From contig CALVMC010000002.1 of assembly GCA_944342015.1 (NCBI GenBank), positions 1 through 64,000 on the forward strand: 64,000 nucleotides of DNA. The letters run 5' to 3'. Each line of letters opens with the position of its first letter. The first letter of the stretch is position 1. Both the position numbers and the translations under genes were made by a program. The notes under the pieces were generated by a model, which was not told the origin of the DNA, ran no database searches, and saw only the letters and a list, made by a program, of their open reading frames with translations. The stretch is from an uncultured Clostridia bacterium. Its GTDB lineage: Bacteria > Bacillota > Clostridia > Christensenellales > CALVMC01. Positions 48,925 through 62,977 of the stretch are shown in pieces.

Positions 48925-51720
48925 ATGAATACCATATTAAGAAAAAAATACAACATTATCTCAGCAATTTTTATCAGTGCAATAATTATTGTCTCAGTCT
49001 TATTTTATTCTGGCTTAAATAAAATCAATAATGTGTATGCGGAAAACGGAGTTACGGTATACGAAACCACATCGCCCGCAACCGAACTTAATGTCGATAC
49101 GGCTTCTATAAGTACTGTTTCGACAAACAGCGAGTTTGACGAATTCGTATTTTTCACAGAACCGACTTATGTTGATACCGACGGAACATACAGAGTGGTT
49201 TTCGATAAAACCAATGATTACAGCGGATACCTTTATGTTTCTTACGAAACCCCGATAGGAACCCGTGCAAGGTTAAAATATACCCTGAACATACCGTCAT
49301 TTGATATAGAACAGTCCAGTCTTGAAGGTATCGATAAAGGTATCGATATTTGCGATATAAAAATATCGGAAAATCTCGGAGCGATATTTATAACTTATAT
49401 ATTGGGCAATTATTCTTACATTGAAGCATATTCTATAAGCAATATGCAGAAGATTGCGCTGTTCAAATCCGATTTCAATGTTTATATATACGGAATAGAT
49501 TTCATAGGCGATACCGTTTACTGTCACGCAGTGGGACATGTACTGTCTGTAAAATTCGATAAAAATAACTTTTCTTTCGGCAGCGGCAATTATTATATAT
49601 CCAATATAAACAATACGGGAAGAGATACAGTTATAGGAAATATATCATCTATACTTTACGGAAATACCGTAAAATTGTTTATAGTATATAACGGAAATGT
49701 ATATGAAAGCACTAACAACACACTTTCTTCCAATCCGATAGAAAACTTGGGTAATGTAAACAATATATCAATATCCAAAGATTATTTTTTAACATATACG
49801 ACAAATGAAATAAATATTTACAATTATTCTTTTGTGAATTCGTCAATCAGGCTTACAAGTCCTACCGAACCGGATGTATACTCCCTTTCGATTTCAACCG
49901 ACGAAAATTACGATGAATTTAATCTTAAATCTATTTCGTGCTTTTCGATAGACTACGAAACCAATTTAATTTATGTTGCCGACAGCGCATACAATGCAGT
50001 AAAAGTATATACTCCGACCAACCTCTCTTATCTCGGAATGCTGGGCTCTTACGGTACTGCCGAATACCGTTTCCGAAATCCGACATCCGTAACAGTATCT
50101 AAAAATTATATATTTGTTGCCGATAACGAAAACGGAAGAATACAAAGAATTTCCCGAACCGATTACAAAAGCATATCGAGCCTTTCAGCCTCCCCCAACA
50201 AACCGCTTTTGGTTGCTGCAAACATGTACGATCAGCTTTATGTTTACGACTCGTCCAAAACCTTGACAAAGTACGGTTATGATTTACAGAAAATAAACGG
50301 CGGAACGGTTAATTTAAGCGACTATGAAGTAACTCAGATTGCCGTAGGTCCCGATAATGCCTTGTATTTTTACGACAGCGTAAGCCAAAAAATTTACAGA
50401 ATAAAGGATAACTACACAACGGTGGAAGAGTTTTGCACCCTTCCTGCGGCAATAACAAAAATTTCATTTGCTCTTGCGGGCAGTACTCTTTATGCGGCAA
50501 ACGCAAAAACCATATACCCTATCGACAATAACGGCAATATAATTTCCGAAAGAACGATAAACATTCAGAATTACTCGTTCGTTAAACTTACCGGACTTGC
50601 CGTGGATTATGAAGGAAATATCCTTATAAGCGGAGAAAAGAACGGTTCCGTAATTAATATGTACAAGATTGCAAGAGTAGGTAAAAATAGCTATTCCACA
50701 GCTAAAAAATACTCGTTTAAATCAAATTACTTTACTCTTAATTATATAAACGGACTTGTTTGCGACACTTCTGCAAATTTGTGTTATCTCGTATCGGGCG
50801 CATCGACAGAGCTTGACTCTGCAAACAGCGTTTTATTTCTTAACGGACTTATATCAACCGGTAATAAAACATACGACGATTTTCCCGAAACATTCGACAA
50901 TATAACGGCGGCAAAAGTAATAACCGAAACTGAATTTATGGCACACCTTTCGAATTTCGAAGATGTCAAAACGATAAACGAAGGTACTTATGTTGTGGTA
51001 CTTGCAAATAAAGTATACGGCTCTACCGAATACTGTTATGTTTGCAGTTTCGACTCAAACGGTAACTCTTTCGGATTTATCAAAAAATCTCATCTCGAAT
51101 ACAAACAAGGCTCAGCCGTTACAGATTCTTATAAAACTGTAATACCTCTTACCGGTGACACGATAACCATATTCAAAACTCCGGTAGAAGCTCAGAATAT
51201 AGGGACATTTGATAATATTCTCTATTCCGATATAGATATTTCGATAGAGGTTATAGACGATGTATGCAACGAAGAAGGCACGCAGATAGTTTTAGGCGGA
51301 GCAAAATGGTACAAAGTAACATACAACGGAAAGACAGGATATGTAACGAAATACAGTATACTTCCCTTTGTGCAGGACGACGCAGTTCCTATAAAAAGTT
51401 TTGCGAAAGTCAAAGCGGACGCAATAGGACTTACCGTAACGCTGTATGCTCAACCTGACGAATATTCCGCAATACTCAATTTCCTTACAGACGGTAAAAA
51501 GGTTCAGCTTTGCGAGCAGTTCGATAAAAACTCTAAATTTACTAAAATTATAGCAGACGGAACCGTAGGATATGTTTTAACCGATAATCTCATTCTCGAC
51601 GGACTTACCACCGGTCAGATAGTTGCTATAATAGTAACCGTGGTAGTTGCCGTAATTGCAATTATCATATTGGTTATAACCCTCGTAATAAAAAAGAAGA
51701 GAAAAGATAATTTTCTGTAA
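48925..51720 (+). CDS. Large secreted beta-propeller protein with SH3-like repeats
   Basis: The 931-aa protein starts with a signal peptide (hydrophobic core about 12-30, likely cut near VYA-EN at about 37). Residues about 50-660 hold repeated short strands with NHL/YncE-like motifs, for example TNLIYVADSAYNAVKVYTP and KNYIFVADNENGRIQRI, fitting one or two beta propellers. About 690-895 holds two or three SH3-like segments (YGSTEYCYV, AKWYKVTYNGKTGYVTK). A C-terminal helix and the tail KKKRKD anchor it. I do not recognise a named family; a wall-facing binding protein is the best guess. It is monocistronic. Confidence 0.75.
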   Translation: MNTILRKKYNIISAIFISAIIIVSVLFYSGLNKINNVYAENGVTVYETTSPATELNVDTASISTVSTNSEFDEFVFFTEPTYVDTDGTYRVVFDKTNDYSGYLYVSYETPIGTRARLKYTLNIPSFDIEQSSLEGIDKGIDICDIKISENLGAIFITYILGNYSYIEAYSISNMQKIALFKSDFNVYIYGIDFIGDTVYCHAVGHVLSVKFDKNNFSFGSGNYYISNINNTGRDTVIGNISSILYGNTVKLFIVYNGNVYESTNNTLSSNPIENLGNVNNISISKDYFLTYTTNEINIYNYSFVNSSIRLTSPTEPDVYSLSISTDENYDEFNLKSISCFSIDYETNLIYVADSAYNAVKVYTPTNLSYLGMLGSYGTAEYRFRNPTSVTVSKNYIFVADNENGRIQRISRTDYKSISSLSASPNKPLLVAANMYDQLYVYDSSKTLTKYGYDLQKINGGTVNLSDYEVTQIAVGPDNALYFYDSVSQKIYRIKDNYTTVEEFCTLPAAITKISFALAGSTLYAANAKTIYPIDNNGNIISERTINIQNYSFVKLTGLAVDYEGNILISGEKNGSVINMYKIARVGKNSYSTAKKYSFKSNYFTLNYINGLVCDTSANLCYLVSGASTELDSANSVLFLNGLISTGNKTYDDFPETFDNITAAKVITETEFMAHLSNFEDVKTINEGTYVVVLANKVYGSTEYCYVCSFDSNGNSFGFIKKSHLEYKQGSAVTDSYKTVIPLTGDTITIFKTPVEAQNIGTFDNILYSDIDISIEVIDDVCNEEGTQIVLGGAKWYKVTYNGKTGYVTKYSILPFVQDDAVPIKSFAKVKADAIGLTVTLYAQPDEYSAILNFLTDGKKVQLCEQFDKNSKFTKIIADGTVGYVLTDNLILDGLTTGQIVAIIVTVVVAVIAIIILVITLVIKKKRKDNFL

Positions 51721-52806: not shown

Positions 52807-54048
52807 ATGGCATCAGAAGACAGAATAATACTACACAGCGATGTAAACAACTTTTATGCATCGGTTGAAATGCGACTTAATCCCGCCCTTCAAGGAAAGT
52901 CTGTCGCCGTCTGCGGAAAGACCGAAGACAGGCACGGAATAGTACTTGCAAAAAGCAATTCTGCAAAAGAAAAAGGAGTTAAAACCGGCGATACGATATG
53001 GCAGGCAAAAATAAAATGTCCCGATTTAATAGTCGTCCCCCCTCATTACAGTCATTATACTAAGTTTTCCAATATAATATTTAATATCTACACTCATTAC
53101 ACCGATTTAGTGGAGCCTTTCGGACTTGACGAGTGCTGGCTTGATGTAACTGCAAGTTCGTCGCTTTTCGGCAGCGGAGAGGAGATTGCAAATAAAATAA
53201 GCAGCGAAATAAAAGAAAAAACAGGATTATCCGTATCCATCGGAGTATCGTTTAACAAGATTTTCGCAAAACTCGGAAGCGACATGAAAAAACCTGCCGG
53301 AATAACCGTTATTACAAAAGAAAATTACAAACAGAAAGTATGGTCTCTACCCGTCAAAGATATGCTTATGATAGGAAAGTCCACGGAAAAGAAATTAGCC
53401 TTACTTAATATAAAGACAATAGGAGACCTTGCCAATACCGATATAAATTTACTCAAAGAACAATTCGGAATAAACGGTGAAAAAATGAAAATTTTCGCCA
53501 GCGGAGAAGACTGCGAGAAAGTTAAAAACTGTTTCAACCGTCATATCCCGGAAAGCGTCGGACACGGAACCACTCCGCCCAAAGATATAGTAGACTACAA
53601 CGAAGCAAAAACCGTAATTTACGCATTATGCGAAATGATTTCGACAAGACTTCGTAAATACGGATTAGACGCAAACGGAGTTTCCCTTTCCATAAAGTAT
53701 CCCGACCTTACAAAACTTTCAAGACAAACTACATTGGATTTTCCCACATCGAATACAACCGACATAGCAAAAGCCGCTTTAACTATACTTAACAAATATC
53801 ATGATTTTTCGGTCTCGGCATTAAGAGCGGTAACAGTTTCCACATTCAAACTGATATCGAAAAAAGAAAACAGACAGCTCAGCATATTCACGCAAAATTC
53901 AAACAAAGAAGACGAACTCGAAAACTGTGTGGACGATATTAGAAGCAAATACGGTTTCAATAAAATAATACGGGGCAATCAGATGCTGTCTCCGAAGCTT
54001 ACATCGAGACTTTTGGAAGACGAAGATTTTATACCCTTTTCAAAATAA
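52807..54048 (+). CDS. dinB: DNA polymerase IV (Y family)
   Basis: The 413-aa translesion polymerase has HSDVNNFYASVEM at the N-terminus, the catalytic GLDECWLDVT (with Asp-Glu), VSIGVSFNKIFAKLGSDMKKP and a C-terminal little-finger domain. It copies past damaged bases. It has no Shine-Dalgarno, with the -10 box 6 nt before the ATG. Confidence 0.95.
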   Translation: MASEDRIILHSDVNNFYASVEMRLNPALQGKSVAVCGKTEDRHGIVLAKSNSAKEKGVKTGDTIWQAKIKCPDLIVVPPHYSHYTKFSNIIFNIYTHYTDLVEPFGLDECWLDVTASSSLFGSGEEIANKISSEIKEKTGLSVSIGVSFNKIFAKLGSDMKKPAGITVITKENYKQKVWSLPVKDMLMIGKSTEKKLALLNIKTIGDLANTDINLLKEQFGINGEKMKIFASGEDCEKVKNCFNRHIPESVGHGTTPPKDIVDYNEAKTVIYALCEMISTRLRKYGLDANGVSLSIKYPDLTKLSRQTTLDFPTSNTTDIAKAALTILNKYHDFSVSALRAVTVSTFKLISKKENRQLSIFTQNSNKEDELENCVDDIRSKYGFNKIIRGNQMLSPKLTSRLLEDEDFIPFSK

Positions 54049-54345: not shown

Positions 54346-54903
54346 TTATTTTTTTCCCTTCATTGCTTTTCCTTCTTCTGTATTGAATCTGCTTTTAAAC
54401 CCGCCGAACTTATCGGGTAATTTTTTAAGAAGATAAAAACAAATAAAGCCGGTAAATACACCCGTAAGCATACCTAACGAAATAAGATAAGGAAGATACA
54501 GAAGAGGAACTGCACTTTGCATAACTACACACGCAACAAAAATCTGAACCGAATTGTGAATCCCCGCCGAAGCAGCGGAGACGGCAGGAAAACTGAATAG
54601 TCCGGTTTTCAGCAATAAAAAACTGATTAAAAGACTTAAAATACCCGCAGGCAACGAATACATTAAAGAAGATAAATTTCCCGTAAAAAGCGATAAAACG
54701 AAGCATTTTAAAATAACAATAATAAATGTGGGAAATAGTCCTGCAATCACAATGGAACAAGTTATTATAACATTAGAAAGACCGAGCTTTAAAGTCGGAA
54801 AGAGAGGAATAATCGGAGGAAAATAATTTTCTATAATCCCCAGAATCAGAACAAGGGTAAGAAGAGCGGAAATCTTGGAAATTTTTTGAGTGCTCAATTT
54901 CAT
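54346..54903 (-). CDS. Gx transporter-family membrane protein (EetB-like)
   Basis: The 185-aa protein has five to six hydrophobic helices and matches the Gx transporter/heptaprenyl diphosphate synthase component I family. In Gram-positive flavinylation and extracellular electron transfer loci, homologues accompany NusG-II proteins and ApbE; from memory these are EetB and EetA. Its start overlaps the NusG-II stop by 4 nt (ATGA). It is the last gene of the operon starting at 60166. Confidence 0.8.
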   Translation of the reverse strand: MKLSTQKISKISALLTLVLILGIIENYFPPIIPLFPTLKLGLSNVIITCSIVIAGLFPTFIIVILKCFVLSLFTGNLSSLMYSLPAGILSLLISFLLLKTGLFSFPAVSAASAGIHNSVQIFVACVVMQSAVPLLYLPYLISLGMLTGVFTGFICFYLLKKLPDKFGGFKSRFNTEEGKAMKGKK

Positions 54904-55286
54904 AATCCGCCCCCTATAACGGCGTCGTAATCACTGTCGCCCGAAATATAGACGATTAATTTATTGGGAAGACAGCTTATGCTTCTTCCGGCTTTTGAAA
55001 CAGGCGGAGAGTTCAGGCAAATTTTGTTCGGACAATCGGCATAGGAAATATACACTTCTCCGTTTTCTATAACAACGGTATTATGTTCGAGTTCTATAAC
55101 TCTGTCTGTGGAAAGTTCGAAAGAATACAAATGCTTACCGTCAAGATAGATTTCGACCGTATTTCCCTTTTCCCCGATAAAAACAAATATTACGGAAATT
55201 ATAACAAAAACGGTAAAAACGATATAAATGACAATATCCCATACCGAAAAAGGTTTCTTGCAAAAATTTTTTTCCTTTTTTGTCAT
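54900..55286 (-). CDS. NusG domain II protein (EetA-like)
   Basis: The 128-aa protein has one transmembrane helix (about 17-38) and an extracytoplasmic NusG-II beta domain with VVIENGEVYISYADCPNKICLNSPP and CLPNKLIVYISG, the cysteine pattern of this family. It is linked to Rnf-like or extracellular electron transfer systems, where it is thought to work with flavinylated proteins; the exact role is not known. AAAGG lies 9 nt before the ATG. Confidence 0.85.
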   Translation of the reverse strand: MTKKEKNFCKKPFSVWDIVIYIVFTVFVIISVIFVFIGEKGNTVEIYLDGKHLYSFELSTDRVIELEHNTVVIENGEVYISYADCPNKICLNSPPVSKAGRSISCLPNKLIVYISGDSDYDAVIGGGL

Positions 55287-55297
55287 ACGGCAAACCT

Positions 55298-56365
55298 TTA
55301 AATTCTTATATAATCGTCAATTTCCGGATAAAAACCGATATTTCCGACGGTGGAATATTTGTTATCCTGTGTGACGATAATACCTGTAAGACCGTATTCG
55401 AGCATTAATTCTCTGCCCTTATCTAAGCCCATAACTATAACCGCCGTTGAAATCATATCGCAAAGAACCCCGCTCTCTCCTATAACCGTAACGCCGGTAA
55501 TTCCGCTTGTCGAAGGTTTCCCGTCCGTTGCCAAAATATGGTGGTAAATATTCCCTGCGGAATCTTTATAAAATCTTTCATAAGTACCGGAAGTAGATAT
55601 ACACATATTTTCGGGAAGCAAAAGAGAACCTAATACCCTTTCCTTGTTATTCGGATCGATAATCCCGATATTATAACTTTTTTTATAGCCTAAAATACTG
55701 CTTCCGCCGAATGAATACAAAGAATAACTTATTCCGTAATCATCGGCATTCTGTCTTGCAATATCGAGATTATAGCCTTTTACCATAGCGCCCGGATCGA
55801 GTTTACTCTCGGAATATTTTTTTGTCACTGTCAGATTTTCCTTATCGAGAATAAAGGTATCTGCGTCGAATTTACAATATTGAAGCATAGAATCGATATC
55901 GCTGTCGGAAGGCGGTTGTTTTTCTGCATAATTGAAAGTTGACGGACTGAATTTCCAAAGTTCGATAAGGGGATAAATCGCAATATTGAAAGCGCCGTCT
56001 GTTTTTACATACAGTTCTCTTGCAAGAAGAAGAAGTCCCATAGTTTCCGAACTTATTTTGACCTGTTCCCCTTTTGGAGCATTATTGATATTGAAAATAT
56101 CGCTGTTTTCTTTTTCGGTAGAAAACAGATTTTCCTTTTCTTCGATAAGCGAAATAAGATTGGCATTGCAAAGTTTTGAATGAACGCCTTTTGTGACGAA
56201 AGAATATTCACTGCCCATAATGACTCCGTTTTTCTCGTCCGTATACAAGGCAAGAATAATTACGGCAATCAGAAGTGCTGTAAAAAGAAGAGCAAGTACC
56301 GCTCTTAGGAGTATTTTGTAATTGAATTTCTTTTTTTGAACTGACTCTTCTTTCTGTGTTTCCAT
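55298..56365 (-). CDS. apbE: FAD:protein FMN transferase (ApbE)
   Basis: The 355-aa protein has a single N-terminal membrane helix (about 18-42, no lipobox cysteine) and the ApbE fold: LDPGAMVKGYNLD, SFGGSSILGYK, HHILATDGKPSTSGITGVTV and CDMISTAVIVMG, where Asp binds magnesium. It transfers FMN to Ser/Thr of extracytoplasmic proteins. The HILD-TG-P motif is altered to HILATDGKP. No FMN-binding-domain substrate is in the window. It starts 7 nt after the phosphoesterase stop. Confidence 0.9.
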   Translation of the reverse strand: METQKEESVQKKKFNYKILLRAVLALLFTALLIAVIILALYTDEKNGVIMGSEYSFVTKGVHSKLCNANLISLIEEKENLFSTEKENSDIFNINNAPKGEQVKISSETMGLLLLARELYVKTDGAFNIAIYPLIELWKFSPSTFNYAEKQPPSDSDIDSMLQYCKFDADTFILDKENLTVTKKYSESKLDPGAMVKGYNLDIARQNADDYGISYSLYSFGGSSILGYKKSYNIGIIDPNNKERVLGSLLLPENMCISTSGTYERFYKDSAGNIYHHILATDGKPSTSGITGVTVIGESGVLCDMISTAVIVMGLDKGRELMLEYGLTGIIVTQDNKYSTVGNIGFYPEIDDYIRI

Positions 56366-56372
56366 AATACTT

Positions 56373-58214
56373 TTATTTATCTAATTTTTCTACCTTGAAA
56401 GAAAAACTGTTATCCGAAGGTTCACGGTCGTTCAGAACATCTCTTAAAAGTATCGGGAAAACCCCTTGGTCTAAAAGATCGCCTACCATAATCGAATTTT
56501 TTTCATAATTTATAAAGCCAAGTATTTTAATACCCAATATTTCTATATCCGAAAAGCCTGAAAGCAAAGGTCTTAAAACATTGAGCCCGCCCGAAGGACT
56601 GATATAAACATCTTTGAGCTGAGGAATCAAGGCAATTACTTCATTGATAATATTGCTTTGAACTACTTCCAGCTCCCCGTACTTAAATAGTTTTTCCATA
56701 GTCGTAGAAAAATCTATATTTGGAACGAAATCATATAAAGCGTTTAATTTTGAAAATACCTGATGTTCTTGCAGTTTATAAACGAAAGCATAAATGCAGT
56801 ATTTTAAAACTTCGGCTTTTTTAGAGCCTACTTCTATATTTTCGTCCCCCGCAAAAGTTCCTGCAAGTATATCGCAGGCAAAATCCATAACGGTATCGTA
56901 TTTAATGCTCGGCAAATTTATACCGTAACTGTCGCATAAATTTTCAAGAGAATTGCTTTCATCGTATAAAGGCATATTCATAAAATCCACTAATGCGGTT
57001 TTTAATATTGAAATAACCTGTTCGAATTTTTCCTTATCGTTAAAAGTCTCGTTAATACCTATATCGCTTAAAACGGAAGATAAAATTCCCCTGTAATTGT
57101 AACCGTTGTCCAGAATTGTAAGAAGCATATTTTCGATATCGGTTTTAACATAAGATTTAGCATATTTTTGAATATTGTTAAAGGAATTTAAAATATCCTT
57201 ACTTAAATCATCTTTTGCGTAAGATTTATTAAGGCTTTTAACATTGTTGCTTTTAATGCTGACGCTTGAAGGATAAAGTTTAACTTCTCTTATGGGAATA
57301 GGATATGAAACTAACGAGCCTGTCTGAATTTCGTACAGAGTTTTACCGTCTTCCCTTTCATAACTTGAAACATTCTGTTGATGAAGATGTCCTACAAAAA
57401 AATATTCGAAGCCCCAATCTAAAAAATCGTCGGCAATCTTAGCGCTGTTTTCCACTTTGAAAGCCGAGCTGTCAATAGGCAGCATATGGTCAAGAAGTGG
57501 TATATGCGTCATACCGATAATTTTTTTATTGTCGGCTGCGGCTTTTTCACACTGTTCTTTAATCCATAAAAGCGTACCTTCGGAAAACGAGCCCATAGAA
57601 GCGTATTCTTTTCCGTTTGAAGAAGTATATGTAGAAGGATCAAGGGCAATAAGTCTGTAATTTTCCCCGATATCCGCAGAATAGGAAAGATTTTCGCTGC
57701 AACGGGAAATTGCTTCACCGTAACCGAAATCGTTATAAATTTCGGCAAATCTTTCAGAACTTACATTCTGAATGGAAGTGGGAGCGTCCCCTTTATAAGA
57801 GTTAGAACTTATATCCACATCGTGGTTTCCGTTGATAACGAATACTTTTTTACCCGAATCTTCTATGCGTTTTAGATTTTCCGCAACGCTTAGGTGTGAA
57901 ATTTCCGAACCGTCTTCCGTAAGATCCCCGGAAACGAGTACGACATCGACATTCATATCGATAATGTTGTCGGTTACGGAACGGAAAATCGCAGGAGATA
58001 TATCGAGCATTTTCTGAGCGGTATTGTTGTAATCGATAAAAGCTTTACTGTTTAAATCGTATTGGTCGTCATCGAGATAATGAATATCCGAAATAACGGC
58101 GATTTTAAGTTCCGGCCTTGCAACGATTACAACCGTAACTATAACAGCTGTTGCAACAAAAACTAAAATTATGAGTCCGATAAGCACATAATTAAAAAGT
58201 TTTTTCCTGTCCAT
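56373..58214 (-). CDS. Membrane-anchored metallophosphoesterase
   Basis: The 613-aa protein has one N-terminal helix (about 10-33) and a calcineurin-like domain outside the membrane with SDIH near 42, GDLTEDG, GNHD and GHLHQQN. The last 280 residues are helical and not assigned. The substrate may be a nucleotide, phospholipid or wall phosphate. It lies between the OLD nuclease (17 nt) and apbE (7 nt) in one operon, with GGGGG as ribosome site. Confidence 0.85.
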   Translation of the reverse strand: MDRKKLFNYVLIGLIILVFVATAVIVTVVIVARPELKIAVISDIHYLDDDQYDLNSKAFIDYNNTAQKMLDISPAIFRSVTDNIIDMNVDVVLVSGDLTEDGSEISHLSVAENLKRIEDSGKKVFVINGNHDVDISSNSYKGDAPTSIQNVSSERFAEIYNDFGYGEAISRCSENLSYSADIGENYRLIALDPSTYTSSNGKEYASMGSFSEGTLLWIKEQCEKAAADNKKIIGMTHIPLLDHMLPIDSSAFKVENSAKIADDFLDWGFEYFFVGHLHQQNVSSYEREDGKTLYEIQTGSLVSYPIPIREVKLYPSSVSIKSNNVKSLNKSYAKDDLSKDILNSFNNIQKYAKSYVKTDIENMLLTILDNGYNYRGILSSVLSDIGINETFNDKEKFEQVISILKTALVDFMNMPLYDESNSLENLCDSYGINLPSIKYDTVMDFACDILAGTFAGDENIEVGSKKAEVLKYCIYAFVYKLQEHQVFSKLNALYDFVPNIDFSTTMEKLFKYGELEVVQSNIINEVIALIPQLKDVYISPSGGLNVLRPLLSGFSDIEILGIKILGFINYEKNSIMVGDLLDQGVFPILLRDVLNDREPSDNSFSFKVEKLDK

Positions 58215-58231
58215 AGTTTCCCCCTATAAAA

Positions 58232-60166
58232 TCAAAGAATATCGAGTTTAACAAAGAGTTTTTCAAACTCTAAAACCGTTTCGTTATCAAAATCTTTAAG
58301 ACTTTTGGCATTTTCCAATTTTTCGGGACTAACCTTTCTCAATCTGCCGTTAGACAACGAAAAATATTTTTCCCTGTCATGTTCCGAAAACAATCCTTCC
58401 ATACATCTCGGTTTTTTGTTTTCGCCTACATAAATTATGTTTTTATCGTTTCGGTGTGCGCTGATAAAATCCACTACCCTGTTTCTGTTAAGGCGTTCTT
58501 CTTCGCTTAATCCGTCTGCGTTCTTCTTCCATTCGAGAGTATCTGCGTCGAGCAGTATTTTATAGTTAATATAATTTTCGTCAAAAAATCTTTTAAGGTA
58601 AGGCATTTGATGCGCCCCGCTCGTATGGAAAACATAATAATTGCTTTCGTCTATTTGAAAGAGTTTCATAAAAGTATGCAAACAGCTCACGTCTTTATAT
58701 CCTTCAACGAGAATAATCTGTCTTGTAAGATTCAATAAAAGGTCGTTATAAGGAATAAGTCCCATATCGGCTTTAATATGCGCCGTATTGTCAAGATCCT
58801 GCTTTTTGACCACTGTACCCTCTTCCGTCATAGAAACGTGAATGAAATTGGATTGGTCGCTTATCATATAAGGGCTGTGTGTGCTGATAATTACGGTAAT
58901 TCCTTTATTTGCAAGTTCTTCGAGACTTTCGAGAATTTCGCTCTGAGCCTGCGGGTGCAAAAAAGAAGCCGGTTCGTCAATAAGGAAAATATCGCCTTTT
59001 TTAAGACAGTTTTTAATAAAAATATATGTAAAGTACCATCTTCTTCCAAGGCTCGTTGAATTGAAATTTACACGGCTGCCGTTATTTTCGAGTATGTAAA
59101 GCTGAAATGCGCCGTTTTCCAATTCCACCTCGATACCCTTGAACATTTTACTGTCGAAACGGGGCATAGAGGAATTAATGAATTTTTGAAATTCTTTTTT
59201 TAAAAACTCATTGTCTTTAATATTTTTTATTTCGGCTTTATCCTTAATTATTTTATTTATTATGAGATAATTGATAAATGCTGTTTCTATGGAATAGCCG
59301 TAATTGCTGTCGTAGTAAGAATGGTTCGTAAGATGAGAACCGAAAATGAGTCCGCTTTCGTTGTCAAGATAATAACAGTTTTTATTTATGCTTTTCAAGA
59401 TTTTAGAAACAAGTGATTTATCGTTTTTTATATCTGAAATATTGTTAAGCATATTAAAAGAGTCGGAAAGTTTAAAAAATTCCTCGCAAACATAACCGTG
59501 AAACTCGTCCAGTTTTTTCTGATAATCGGTTCTTTGATGCTCGTTTATCTGAGAACTAGTGGATTTTTCCAAAAGCAATTTAATATCGTCGGGGGAAAAT
59601 TTTATTTCGGTTTTATTCTGAACGCTGATTTTGAAAGTATCGTTATGCAAGGACTCTTTAATAAACGATAAAATACCGTCTTTGAACTTTACAACATTAT
59701 CGGAAAAACAGTTGCACTTTTTAACGCCTTCTTTAAAACCGCATTCTTTAAGTATTTCCACACATTGTAAGACGGTTCCGACGATATTATCACAAAAAAC
59801 CTTTATTCTGTTTTTTATTCTGTTCAACGACACTGAAATAATGGAAGAGACAATTTTTTTATCTTCGAAATTTAATGAAGCGAAATGAATTTCTATAATT
59901 TTGGACTGATTGTTGAAATCGTTTTCTAATCCGTAATCTTTTGCGTCATTATAATCTATTTCTATTTTGGCTCTGTATTCGGGTTCGAGAAATCCTTTTA
60001 CCACCGCAGCCGTAGGAAGATTGAAAAACAAATTCAAAGCTTCCAGAATATTTGTTTTACCGCTTCCGTTTCTTCCGAGAAGAGTGGTTATCCCCTTAGA
60101 TAACTCTATATTCTGACCGCTGCAAAGCGATTTGTATTTATTAATGCGAATTTCTTTTAAAATCAT
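58232..60166 (-). CDS. OLD-family ATPase/TOPRIM nuclease
   Basis: The 644-aa protein has an SMC/RecF-like ATPase: Walker A LLGRNGSGKTNILEA near residue 32, signature-like TSLGRRW, Walker B DIFLIDEPASFLHPQ and H-loop STHSPYM. A C-terminal TOPRIM domain follows with ILVEGYKD (Glu) and LLDADTLEW (Asp-x-Asp). OLD proteins are DNA nucleases; class 1 act alone and class 2 pair with a UvrD-like helicase (GajAB). No helicase is nearby, so it looks class 1. It is the first gene of the operon and has a consensus promoter. Its role could be phage defence or DNA repair. Confidence 0.9.
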   Translation of the reverse strand: MILKEIRINKYKSLCSGQNIELSKGITTLLGRNGSGKTNILEALNLFFNLPTAAVVKGFLEPEYRAKIEIDYNDAKDYGLENDFNNQSKIIEIHFASLNFEDKKIVSSIISVSLNRIKNRIKVFCDNIVGTVLQCVEILKECGFKEGVKKCNCFSDNVVKFKDGILSFIKESLHNDTFKISVQNKTEIKFSPDDIKLLLEKSTSSQINEHQRTDYQKKLDEFHGYVCEEFFKLSDSFNMLNNISDIKNDKSLVSKILKSINKNCYYLDNESGLIFGSHLTNHSYYDSNYGYSIETAFINYLIINKIIKDKAEIKNIKDNEFLKKEFQKFINSSMPRFDSKMFKGIEVELENGAFQLYILENNGSRVNFNSTSLGRRWYFTYIFIKNCLKKGDIFLIDEPASFLHPQAQSEILESLEELANKGITVIISTHSPYMISDQSNFIHVSMTEEGTVVKKQDLDNTAHIKADMGLIPYNDLLLNLTRQIILVEGYKDVSCLHTFMKLFQIDESNYYVFHTSGAHQMPYLKRFFDENYINYKILLDADTLEWKKNADGLSEEERLNRNRVVDFISAHRNDKNIIYVGENKKPRCMEGLFSEHDREKYFSLSNGRLRKVSPEKLENAKSLKDFDNETVLEFEKLFVKLDIL

Positions 60167-60184
60167 AATTTTCCCTTATAAAAT

Positions 60185-60213
60185 ATTATATAAATATGTA
60201 GATTATTTGTCAA
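60185..60213 (-). promoter_or_regulatory. Consensus promoter of the OLD-ApbE operon
   Basis: Perfect TTGACA, 17 nt, perfect TATAAT on the minus strand; about 12 nt of leader with AGGG. It is one of the strongest promoters in the window. Confidence 0.85.
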
Positions 60214-60245: not shown

Positions 60246-60281
60246 TATATAAAAAAATAAAAGGACGGATACCCGTCCTTT
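60246..60281 (-). terminator. Terminator of the riboswitch-controlled P-type ATPase
   Basis: AAAGGACGG and CCGTCCTTT pair around 4 nt; the minus strand continues TTATTTTTTT. Confidence 0.85.
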
Positions 60282-60316: not shown

Positions 60317-62977
60317 TTAAATCTGATTTTTTACCTTTGATTTATCTGTAAATCTTTGTATGAGTTTAACTAATTCCGATACAACAATTACGCTGAAAGA
60401 GATCCCTATAATTTTAAGCCATGTAATTGCAGAAAGGGGTTCTGTCATAAAAGCGGCTTTTCCGAACTGAGTAATAATTATTTGTAACGCAAAAGCAATA
60501 ACAAACACTAAAATCATAAGCCGGTTTGATTTGAAATTTTTAATAAGACTTTCATTTCCTAGTTCCCTGCTGTTGAAAGCATTGAAGAGCTGAAAGACAA
60601 CAAACATGGTAAACAGAACGGTAGACTCTTCCGCTTCCGAAACGGCAAGGAAATTAAAAGCCGACTGAAACATAAAAATAATGCTGATAAAAATACCGTT
60701 CACCAAAATATTGGTAAGCATTTTTTTATTTACTATGCTGCTGTTTCTCGGATTGGGTTTTCTGTCGAGAAGATTTTCCCTGATAGGTTCGAGTCCCAAA
60801 GTAAGAGCCGGCGGACCGTCCATAACAATGTTTATCCAAAGCAGTTGAAGAGCGGTAAAAGGAGACTGAAATCCTATAAGAACCGATAAGAGTACAACGA
60901 TAACCGAAGAAAGATTAACTGTCAGCTGAAACTGTATAAATCTTTGAAAGTTCTCATAAATACCCCTGCCCCAATGTATTGCCTTTACGATAGTTGAAAA
61001 GGAATCGTCAAGAAGGACTATATCGCTTGCTTCTTTGGAAACTTCGGTTCCGGTAATTCCCATAGCGATACCAATATCGGCATTTTTAAGTGCGGGAGCG
61101 TCGTTGATACCGTCCCCTGTTACAGCAACGACATTACCTAAGCTTTTAAGAGCATTGACGACTCTCATTTTGATTATGGGAGTACTTCTTGCGATAACTC
61201 TGATTTTGGGAACTAATTTTTTAAGTTCGGTATCGGAAAGAGGTTCTAATTCCTTTGCTTCTACCGCAATACCGTCCTTACCGATAATATTGAGTTCCTT
61301 TGCGATAGCGGTTGCGGTAACGATATTATCTCCCGTCAGCATCTTAATTTCAATACCCGCTCTTTTACAGTCTTTAACTGCCTTGTATACTTCCTTTCTT
61401 ATCGGGTCGGCAATCGCAACAAAACCGTCGAAAATCATATCACATTCGATTTCGGCACGGTGTTTTTCATAGTTAACTTCCTTTTCGAGTGTTTTATGGC
61501 AAAAAGCGAGAATTCTGTAAGCCTTTTTTTCGAACTCTTCCATTTTGGAAGAAAGCTGCTCTTTTGCAAAAGAATTCATGGAACACATATCCATAATTTT
61601 TTCAGGACTACCTTTGGAAAAAGCGGTAATTGCCCCGTCTTTTATTACGGTAGTCATATTTTTGTTTTCCGAACTGAAAGGAAAGCTGTAAACGATTTTA
61701 TATTTTTTTCGCCATTCGTTATAGTCGTTACCGCATTTATTGAGAGCGACAAGAAGAGCGCATTCCGTAGGATTTCCCACAAATCTGTTTCCCTTTTCGT
61801 CGAAATTGACGTTTGCGGTAGAGTTGAGTGCGAAATTTTTGATAAGATTAATATCGTCAAGATTTTTAACTTCTACATTCTTTCCTTTTTGAAAAACGCT
61901 CATAACCGTCATTTTATTTTCGGTAAGAGTTCCTGTTTTATCCGAGCAAATGACATTTACCGAACCTGCCGTCTCGCAAGCGACCATTTTTTTAACGAGA
62001 GCGTTCTGTTTTGACATTTTAATAATATTTATGGCAAGCGAAACTGCAACGATTGTGGGAAGACCTTCGGGAACGGAAGCGACAATAAGGACAATACTCG
62101 TAATAAAGGCTTCGGTTACCGTTTCAAAATTTGCAGTGCCCGCAGAAAGAAAAACTGTAAGCTGTATAAGAAAAACTATAAGAGCGACAACCGAACCTGC
62201 AATCGCTATAATTTTTCCGAGTTTGGCAAGTTTTTCTTGTAGCGGAGTCTGGGATTTTTCGGTATCGGAAAGTTCTTTTGCTATTTTTCCGAATTCGGTA
62301 TTATCGCCGATACCCGTAACGAGAACCCTTCCGCTTCCTCCCGTAACAAAGCAACCGCTGTAAACCATATTGACTCTTTCGGCGACCGGAGTATTTTCAT
62401 TGATGATAGTGGTTTCCGAATTTTTCTTAACGGGAAGGCTTTCGCCTGTCAGCGAAGATTCGTCAATTCTCAAATCCACGCTTTCTATAAGACGACCGTC
62501 TGCGGGAGTTTTATCCCCCGTAGACAATATAAGAATATCACCTACGGCAACATCTTTTTGGGAAATATAATCGACTTTTCCGTTTCTTAAAACTTTAACC
62601 TGAGTATCTTCGGTAAATTTATTCAAAGCTTCGAATGCTTTTGCGCTGCGCCCTTCCATTACTACCGTGATGACGACAGAGAGCAAAATAGCCACGAAAA
62701 TACCTATTGTTTCTATAAAGTCTGCCTTTCCTGTTTTGATATATTCGAAAACGCAAACTCCGACTGCGATTAAGCCTGCCGCAAGCAGCATAATAATCAT
62801 CGGTTCTTTGAAAGCAAGGAAAAACCTTTTAATTAAACCGTCCGCTTTCTTTTTTGAAAAAACATTCTTTCCGTATTTTTCAACGCTTTTTAAAACATCG
62901 GAATCGGTAAGCCCTACTTTTTCGTCAACGCCTGCATCGCTCAAAACCTCATTTTTACTTTTAAGAAAATCCTGCAT
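60317..62977 (-). CDS. P-type Ca2+/Mn2+ ATPase under Mn riboswitch
   Basis: The 886-aa P2-type pump has the N-terminal cation ATPase domain, TGE loop (LTGESLPVKK), transmembrane VPEGLPTIVAVSLA, phosphorylation site CSDKTGTLTEN, TGDGINDAPALKNADIG and WINIVMDGPPALTLGLEP. These are SERCA/PMR1-like features for calcium or manganese. With the manganese riboswitch upstream, the closest functional analogues are YoaB of Lactococcus and MgtA/CaxP-type pumps of streptococci, which export Mn2+ or Ca2+. The start has GAGGT 5 nt upstream. Confidence 0.92.
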   Translation of the reverse strand: MQDFLKSKNEVLSDAGVDEKVGLTDSDVLKSVEKYGKNVFSKKKADGLIKRFFLAFKEPMIIMLLAAGLIAVGVCVFEYIKTGKADFIETIGIFVAILLSVVITVVMEGRSAKAFEALNKFTEDTQVKVLRNGKVDYISQKDVAVGDILILSTGDKTPADGRLIESVDLRIDESSLTGESLPVKKNSETTIINENTPVAERVNMVYSGCFVTGGSGRVLVTGIGDNTEFGKIAKELSDTEKSQTPLQEKLAKLGKIIAIAGSVVALIVFLIQLTVFLSAGTANFETVTEAFITSIVLIVASVPEGLPTIVAVSLAINIIKMSKQNALVKKMVACETAGSVNVICSDKTGTLTENKMTVMSVFQKGKNVEVKNLDDINLIKNFALNSTANVNFDEKGNRFVGNPTECALLVALNKCGNDYNEWRKKYKIVYSFPFSSENKNMTTVIKDGAITAFSKGSPEKIMDMCSMNSFAKEQLSSKMEEFEKKAYRILAFCHKTLEKEVNYEKHRAEIECDMIFDGFVAIADPIRKEVYKAVKDCKRAGIEIKMLTGDNIVTATAIAKELNIIGKDGIAVEAKELEPLSDTELKKLVPKIRVIARSTPIIKMRVVNALKSLGNVVAVTGDGINDAPALKNADIGIAMGITGTEVSKEASDIVLLDDSFSTIVKAIHWGRGIYENFQRFIQFQLTVNLSSVIVVLLSVLIGFQSPFTALQLLWINIVMDGPPALTLGLEPIRENLLDRKPNPRNSSIVNKKMLTNILVNGIFISIIFMFQSAFNFLAVSEAEESTVLFTMFVVFQLFNAFNSRELGNESLIKNFKSNRLMILVFVIAFALQIIITQFGKAAFMTEPLSAITWLKIIGISFSVIVVSELVKLIQRFTDKSKVKNQI

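Follow-up and report, generated by a model that had tools for sequence, protein, structure and literature searches.

An OLD-family nuclease gene and a surface phosphoesterase gene at the head of a flavin-module operon: an apparent lineage-specific addition

The flavin-transfer module built from EetA, EetB and ApbE is known from Listeria (FLEET) and from clostridial Rnf-linked sets. FAD is bound by EetB, which in Listeria is needed, along with ECF subunits, for extracytosolic flavinylation; its gene is found together with eetA and apbE and, in Clostridia, with Rnf genes (PMC9973259). The Listeria FLEET genes are lmo2634 to lmo2641 (PMC8837199), which makes lmo2642 the next tag after the set, and the activity reported for Lmo2642, according to Kim 2011 as cited in PMC4320098, is that of a cyclic nucleotide phosphodiesterase. 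Proteins of the OLD family come from a different field. Single-gene OLD proteins form Class 1 (PMC10568477), of which YbjD gives anti-phage phenotypes on induced expression (PMC13261556), and the archaeal OLD protein Cran1 has a role in the cell cycle (PMC12796447).

Genes of the EetA-EetB-ApbE, Lmo2642 and OLD kinds are brought together in the window, by which we mean the whole 64,000-nucleotide stretch of DNA that was analysed. The features of the locus and its flanks are as follows.

58232..60166, minus strand: OLD-family ABC ATPase/TOPRIM nuclease, 644 aa (PF13175, PF13304 and PF20469 above cut-offs; PADLOC Old, AriA and GajA profiles)
56373..58214, minus strand: membrane-anchored metallophosphoesterase (MPE) of the Lmo2642 type, 613 aa (PF00149; helical C-terminal half)
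55298..56365, minus strand: ApbE FAD:protein FMN transferase (PF02424, E=3e-54; N-terminal membrane anchor)
54900..55286, minus strand: NusG_II protein (EetA-type), membrane-anchored (PF07009, E=1e-22)
54346..54903, minus strand: Gx/EetB-type ECF-S subunit, predicted to export FAD (PF07456, Hpre_diP_synt_I, E=1e-26)
60185..60213, minus strand: sigma-70-type promoter, TTGACA-17-TATAAT (12/12 consensus match)
60260..60281, minus strand: terminator-like hairpin of the upstream P-type ATPase gene (9-pair stem and T run)
60317..62977, minus strand: P-type cation ATPase (Pfam), the upstream neighbour, a transcription unit of its own separated from OLD by the terminator
52807..54048, plus strand: DinB-type polymerase, convergent neighbour of Gx (PF00817)

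An earlier note on this DNA had described the five minus-strand genes as a single cluster behind one consensus promoter, and this description holds. All five reading frames are present, separated by gaps of 17, 7, 11 and -4 nt, and Pfam returns AAA_15 with an OLD-like TOPRIM, Metallophos, ApbE, NusG_II and Hpre_diP_synt_I (that is, Gx/EetB) for their products. The promoter is the sole 12/12 match across the 6.5 kb scanned, and nothing terminator-like is found in any intergenic gap, that between OLD and MPE included. Close spacing is in itself nothing unusual in this genome, since with a crude ORF caller about 20 of the window's 39 pairs of neighbours on the same strand are no more than 20 nt apart. 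Co-transcription of the five genes from the shared promoter is nevertheless the reading that the sequence suggests, and the promoter itself looks constitutive. Control by the SOS response was considered and set aside: GAACNNNNGTTC shows no enrichment and there is no perfect site at the OLD promoter. No riboswitch or other RNA element was found across 51-64 kb.

The arrangement is not confined to one species. Two species of the genus are known, and the second (G001, GenBank CASFOZ010000002.1, 'uncultured Eubacteriales bacterium') carries all five in identical order, OLD-MPE-ApbE-NusG_II-Gx. Both promoter hexamers and their spacing are identical, and the terminator stem ahead of the promoter is kept, as is the OLD-MPE junction. 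The OLD proteins share 93% amino acid identity, with dN/dS 0.070, dS 0.54 and GC3 0.37; dS and GC3 are close to those of the neighbouring genes. The conserved order and promoter, with the high identity and low dN/dS of OLD, imply that this gene is no recent insert, but is older than the split of the two species and under purifying selection. Recent mobile insertion was also rejected: OLD has no clear flanking repeats and resembles its neighbours in GC3 and dS, and the window has a single tRNA, far off at 38.6 kb. Elsewhere in the window (48925-51720) a 931-aa secreted protein with a C-terminal hydrophobic anchor, named from its sequence as probably NHL-repeat-like, likewise has about 93% amino acid identity to its counterpart in the sister species and evolves about as fast as OLD.

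The three downstream genes adjoin each other on one strand, an arrangement shared by most module loci of the order, and can be read as the flavin set that the earlier note took them to be. Its remark that no FMN-binding substrate is encoded nearby is true locally, but the genome does encode one. A single FMN_bind protein is present in the assembly, which is 86% complete: this is RnfG, within an RnfCDGEAB operon on another contig, the Rnf subunits being named from their sequences and gene order. ApbE likewise has a single match in the assembly. With one ApbE and one FMN_bind protein, the apparently missing substrate is probably RnfG, together with RnfD, and it is these proteins that the module probably serves.

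Does the flavin module have the same companions elsewhere? Of 200 genomes searched in the order, 138 have NusG_II above the family cut-off, and 60 of these loci, all outside the window's genus, were fetched. ApbE, NusG_II and Gx occur together in about 50 of them, and Rnf genes are carried or adjoined in seven, while neither OLD nor MPE stands beside NusG_II in any of the 60. Four of these loci (L127, L226, L229 and L249) represent the same locus without OLD and MPE, with DinB convergent directly after Gx as in the window; they come from G024, G123 and G049 of family f24 and from G095 of family f3, and in the three f24 genomes a DegV gene precedes ApbE. The convergent DinB gene is thus a flank of the module conserved across families. 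A DegV-family gene (PF02645) is present at 20 of the 60 ApbE-NusG_II-Gx loci, often immediately upstream of ApbE (L117, L127, L129, L226, L231, L232, L242, L244 and L250 are among those with DegV). In G071 (L253:5963-9910) a P-type cation ATPase 36% identical to that of the window lies directly before ApbE, with no OLD or MPE between them, an arrangement that is possibly a second form of the locus without these genes, or a coincidence. The earlier note had reasoned that relatives carrying MPE-ApbE-NusG_II-Gx without OLD, or a terminator or separate transcript between OLD and MPE, would make the link accidental. The module found at the same locus without OLD and MPE comes close to the first of these cases, although that particular order without OLD was not seen. 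Since relatives carry the same operon without the two leading genes, the front of the operon looks like a lineage-specific addition, in one small genus, to a known module, and not a new system. It is a case of known kinds of genes in an unusual neighbourhood.

The OLD protein itself has an N-terminal ABC ATPase and a C-terminal TOPRIM domain. Its motifs are intact (Walker A GRNGSGKT, Walker B FLIDEP, TOPRIM E488/D540/D542) and conserved in all five aligned sequences, and no membrane segment is predicted. The genes adjoining it, for the P-type ATPase and MPE, include no GajB UvrD-like helicase, reverse transcriptase or AriB, which places it by context in Class 1; no other defence gene is found among its immediate neighbours. 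The AlphaFold model is weak (mean pLDDT 62, with poor superpositions and with helices at 541-570 that could be either a TOPRIM insert or part of the core), and the Foldseek matches drawn from it, to retron ATPases, TsOLD, SMC proteins and GajA at low TM-scores, agree with the family and leave the class unsettled. Three full-length relatives occur in the order, in scattered genomes and at a distant 25-31% identity, none of them with a flavin module nearby. Two of the three are in defence islands, one beside part of a Hachiman HamB-like helicase, together with a type II methyltransferase and a recombinase, the other with AbiE and CRISPR type I-C genes. Among 390 other genomes of the class sample there is no match at E<=1e-25. 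Neither a phage nor a plasmid origin is indicated: P2 Old is the sole phage protein match (27%), viral contigs give only partial, ATPase-centred matches, and the plasmid matches listed are weak, at no more than 28% identity.

Why, then, does an OLD gene head a flavin operon? We consider it probable that an ancestral module for flavin export and flavin transfer gained two genes on its upstream side, one for an OLD defence protein of the stand-alone, Class 1 type and one for a surface phosphoesterase, and that these now share one promoter with it. In the ancestral module, EetB would export FAD with the help of ECF T and A subunits, and ApbE would link FMN covalently to proteins outside the cytosol, in this genome most likely RnfG and RnfD. 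The two further genes would have been gained upstream of ApbE before the split of the two known species. OLD most likely works alone against phages (or plasmids) as a cytosolic enzyme whose ABC domain responds to the state of nucleotides or DNA and whose TOPRIM domain nicks or degrades DNA, while MPE, predicted to be extracytosolic, may be a hydrolase of flavin or other nucleotides on the outer side of the membrane. Both would simply use the constitutive-looking promoter of the module, and no coupling between OLD and flavin would be needed. Of three ideas put forward in the earlier note, a defence gene behind a strong promoter is thus the best fit, given the OLD-free locus and the two relatives in defence islands. 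OLD proteins are not always defensive, as Cran1 shows (PMC12796447), and the defence role should be read with that caveat. If it is correct, a defence-type gene can persist under a metabolic operon's promoter, away from any defence island, where island-based searches would miss it.

A different emphasis, which we advance only tentatively and think rather unlikely, places the significance of the locus in MPE. On this view the Lmo2642-type phosphoesterase would take a so far unrecognised part in handling flavins outside the cytosol, perhaps by hydrolysing FAD after its export or by trimming flavin nucleotides on the outer side of the membrane. Listeria and this genus would each have recruited it separately, with OLD as a passenger. 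Lmo2642 (2xmo) is the only sequence relative of MPE among PDB structures (E=3e-36), and it is also the top Foldseek match of the MPE model (pLDDT 80; E=3e-27). The calcineurin-like metal ligands D43, H45, D97, H131, H237, H276 and H278 are invariant, and the N-terminus has a hydrophobic stretch following basic residues; the enzyme is predicted to face outward. In genus g573 an MPE gene directly follows NusG_II, Gx and a putative prenyl synthase gene on the same strand in all seven loci fetched (L194, L195, L197, L198, L200, L201 and L205). Two of these share an exact run of 25 residues with the 2xmo sequence, which identifies g573 as Listeria. Linkage of MPE to the module as a general rule was rejected, as it is absent at 9 MPE loci of the order, 11 elsewhere in the phylum and 13 non-Listeria MPE loci of the order to which Listeria belongs. 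The presence of MPE beside a flavin module in two distant lineages suggests a flavin-related role without proving it, and is suggestive only, the first lineage having been picked for its position. The recurring neighbourhood nevertheless gives Lmo2642-type phosphoesterases next to flavin export genes a testable role.

It is less probable again that OLD is a housekeeping protein of DNA repair or the cell cycle, in the manner of Cran1 (PMC12796447), and hence tolerant of a place in a metabolic operon. The strong purifying selection, the constitutive-looking promoter and the Cran1 precedent would all fit such a role. Its distribution is patchy, however, being scattered in the order and absent at the above threshold from the class sample; two of three relatives are in defence islands, and the promoter has no SOS box.

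Functional coupling, in which the five genes form one system, with OLD sensing redox or flavin state or the membrane-bound MPE signalling phage attack to OLD, is more doubtful still. The single promoter, the tight gaps, the similar evolutionary rates of OLD and MPE and the order conserved in both species would be expected from it, although two species are too few to discriminate. Against this, the combination does not recur in the 60 module loci of the order, relatives have the same locus without OLD and MPE, and OLD relatives in defence islands lack the module. MPE is, moreover, predicted to face outward, and OLD has no membrane segment. The two remaining ideas of the earlier note, a link between redox or flavin state and DNA damage and phage sensing at the membrane, accordingly find no support, given the module across the order and at the DinB-flanked loci without OLD or MPE, and given full-length OLD relatives that do without the module.

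Least probable of all is that OLD and MPE entered together as a pair, Mre11-Rad50/SbcCD-like or otherwise defensive: the genes are adjacent, OLD resembles Rad50/SMC heads, and MPE weakly matches Mre11/SbcD and an NCBIfam 'anti-phage phosphoesterase' model, but this last match, at 41.8 bits, is far below the cut-off of 420, MPE carries a membrane anchor at its N-terminus, its closest relative Lmo2642 is listed among surface proteins, and its relatives in the order are not adjacent to OLD relatives.

Finally, the probable recruitment of a defence-type OLD gene and a surface phosphoesterase to the module can be set against the systems described at the outset. The window shares with the EetA-EetB-ApbE sets of Listeria FLEET and the clostridial Rnf-linked loci (PMC9973259) the contiguous ApbE, NusG_II and PF07456 genes; it differs in its two extra genes upstream, in having its Rnf operon on another contig, and in having no adjoining ECF-T/A genes. 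Like the Class 1 proteins P2 Old, T. scotoductus OLD and YbjD/OldB, the window's OLD combines ABC ATPase and TOPRIM in one protein without a partner. Overall similarity to them is low, however, and this OLD gene stands first in a metabolic gene cluster whose promoter it shares; its product, at 644 aa, may have a long helical insert, which is of low confidence in the model. Gabija (GajA) and PARIS (AriA/AriB) share ATPase profile similarity with it, but it lacks an adjacent GajB helicase or AriB partner. MPE and Lmo2642 match in sequence and fold and both lie beside EetA-EetB, and MPE may share the extracytosolic location of Lmo2642. In contrast to Lmo2642, the window's MPE has a transmembrane anchor and about 170 more residues, and its gene precedes ApbE, whereas that of Lmo2642 follows the prenyl synthase gene.
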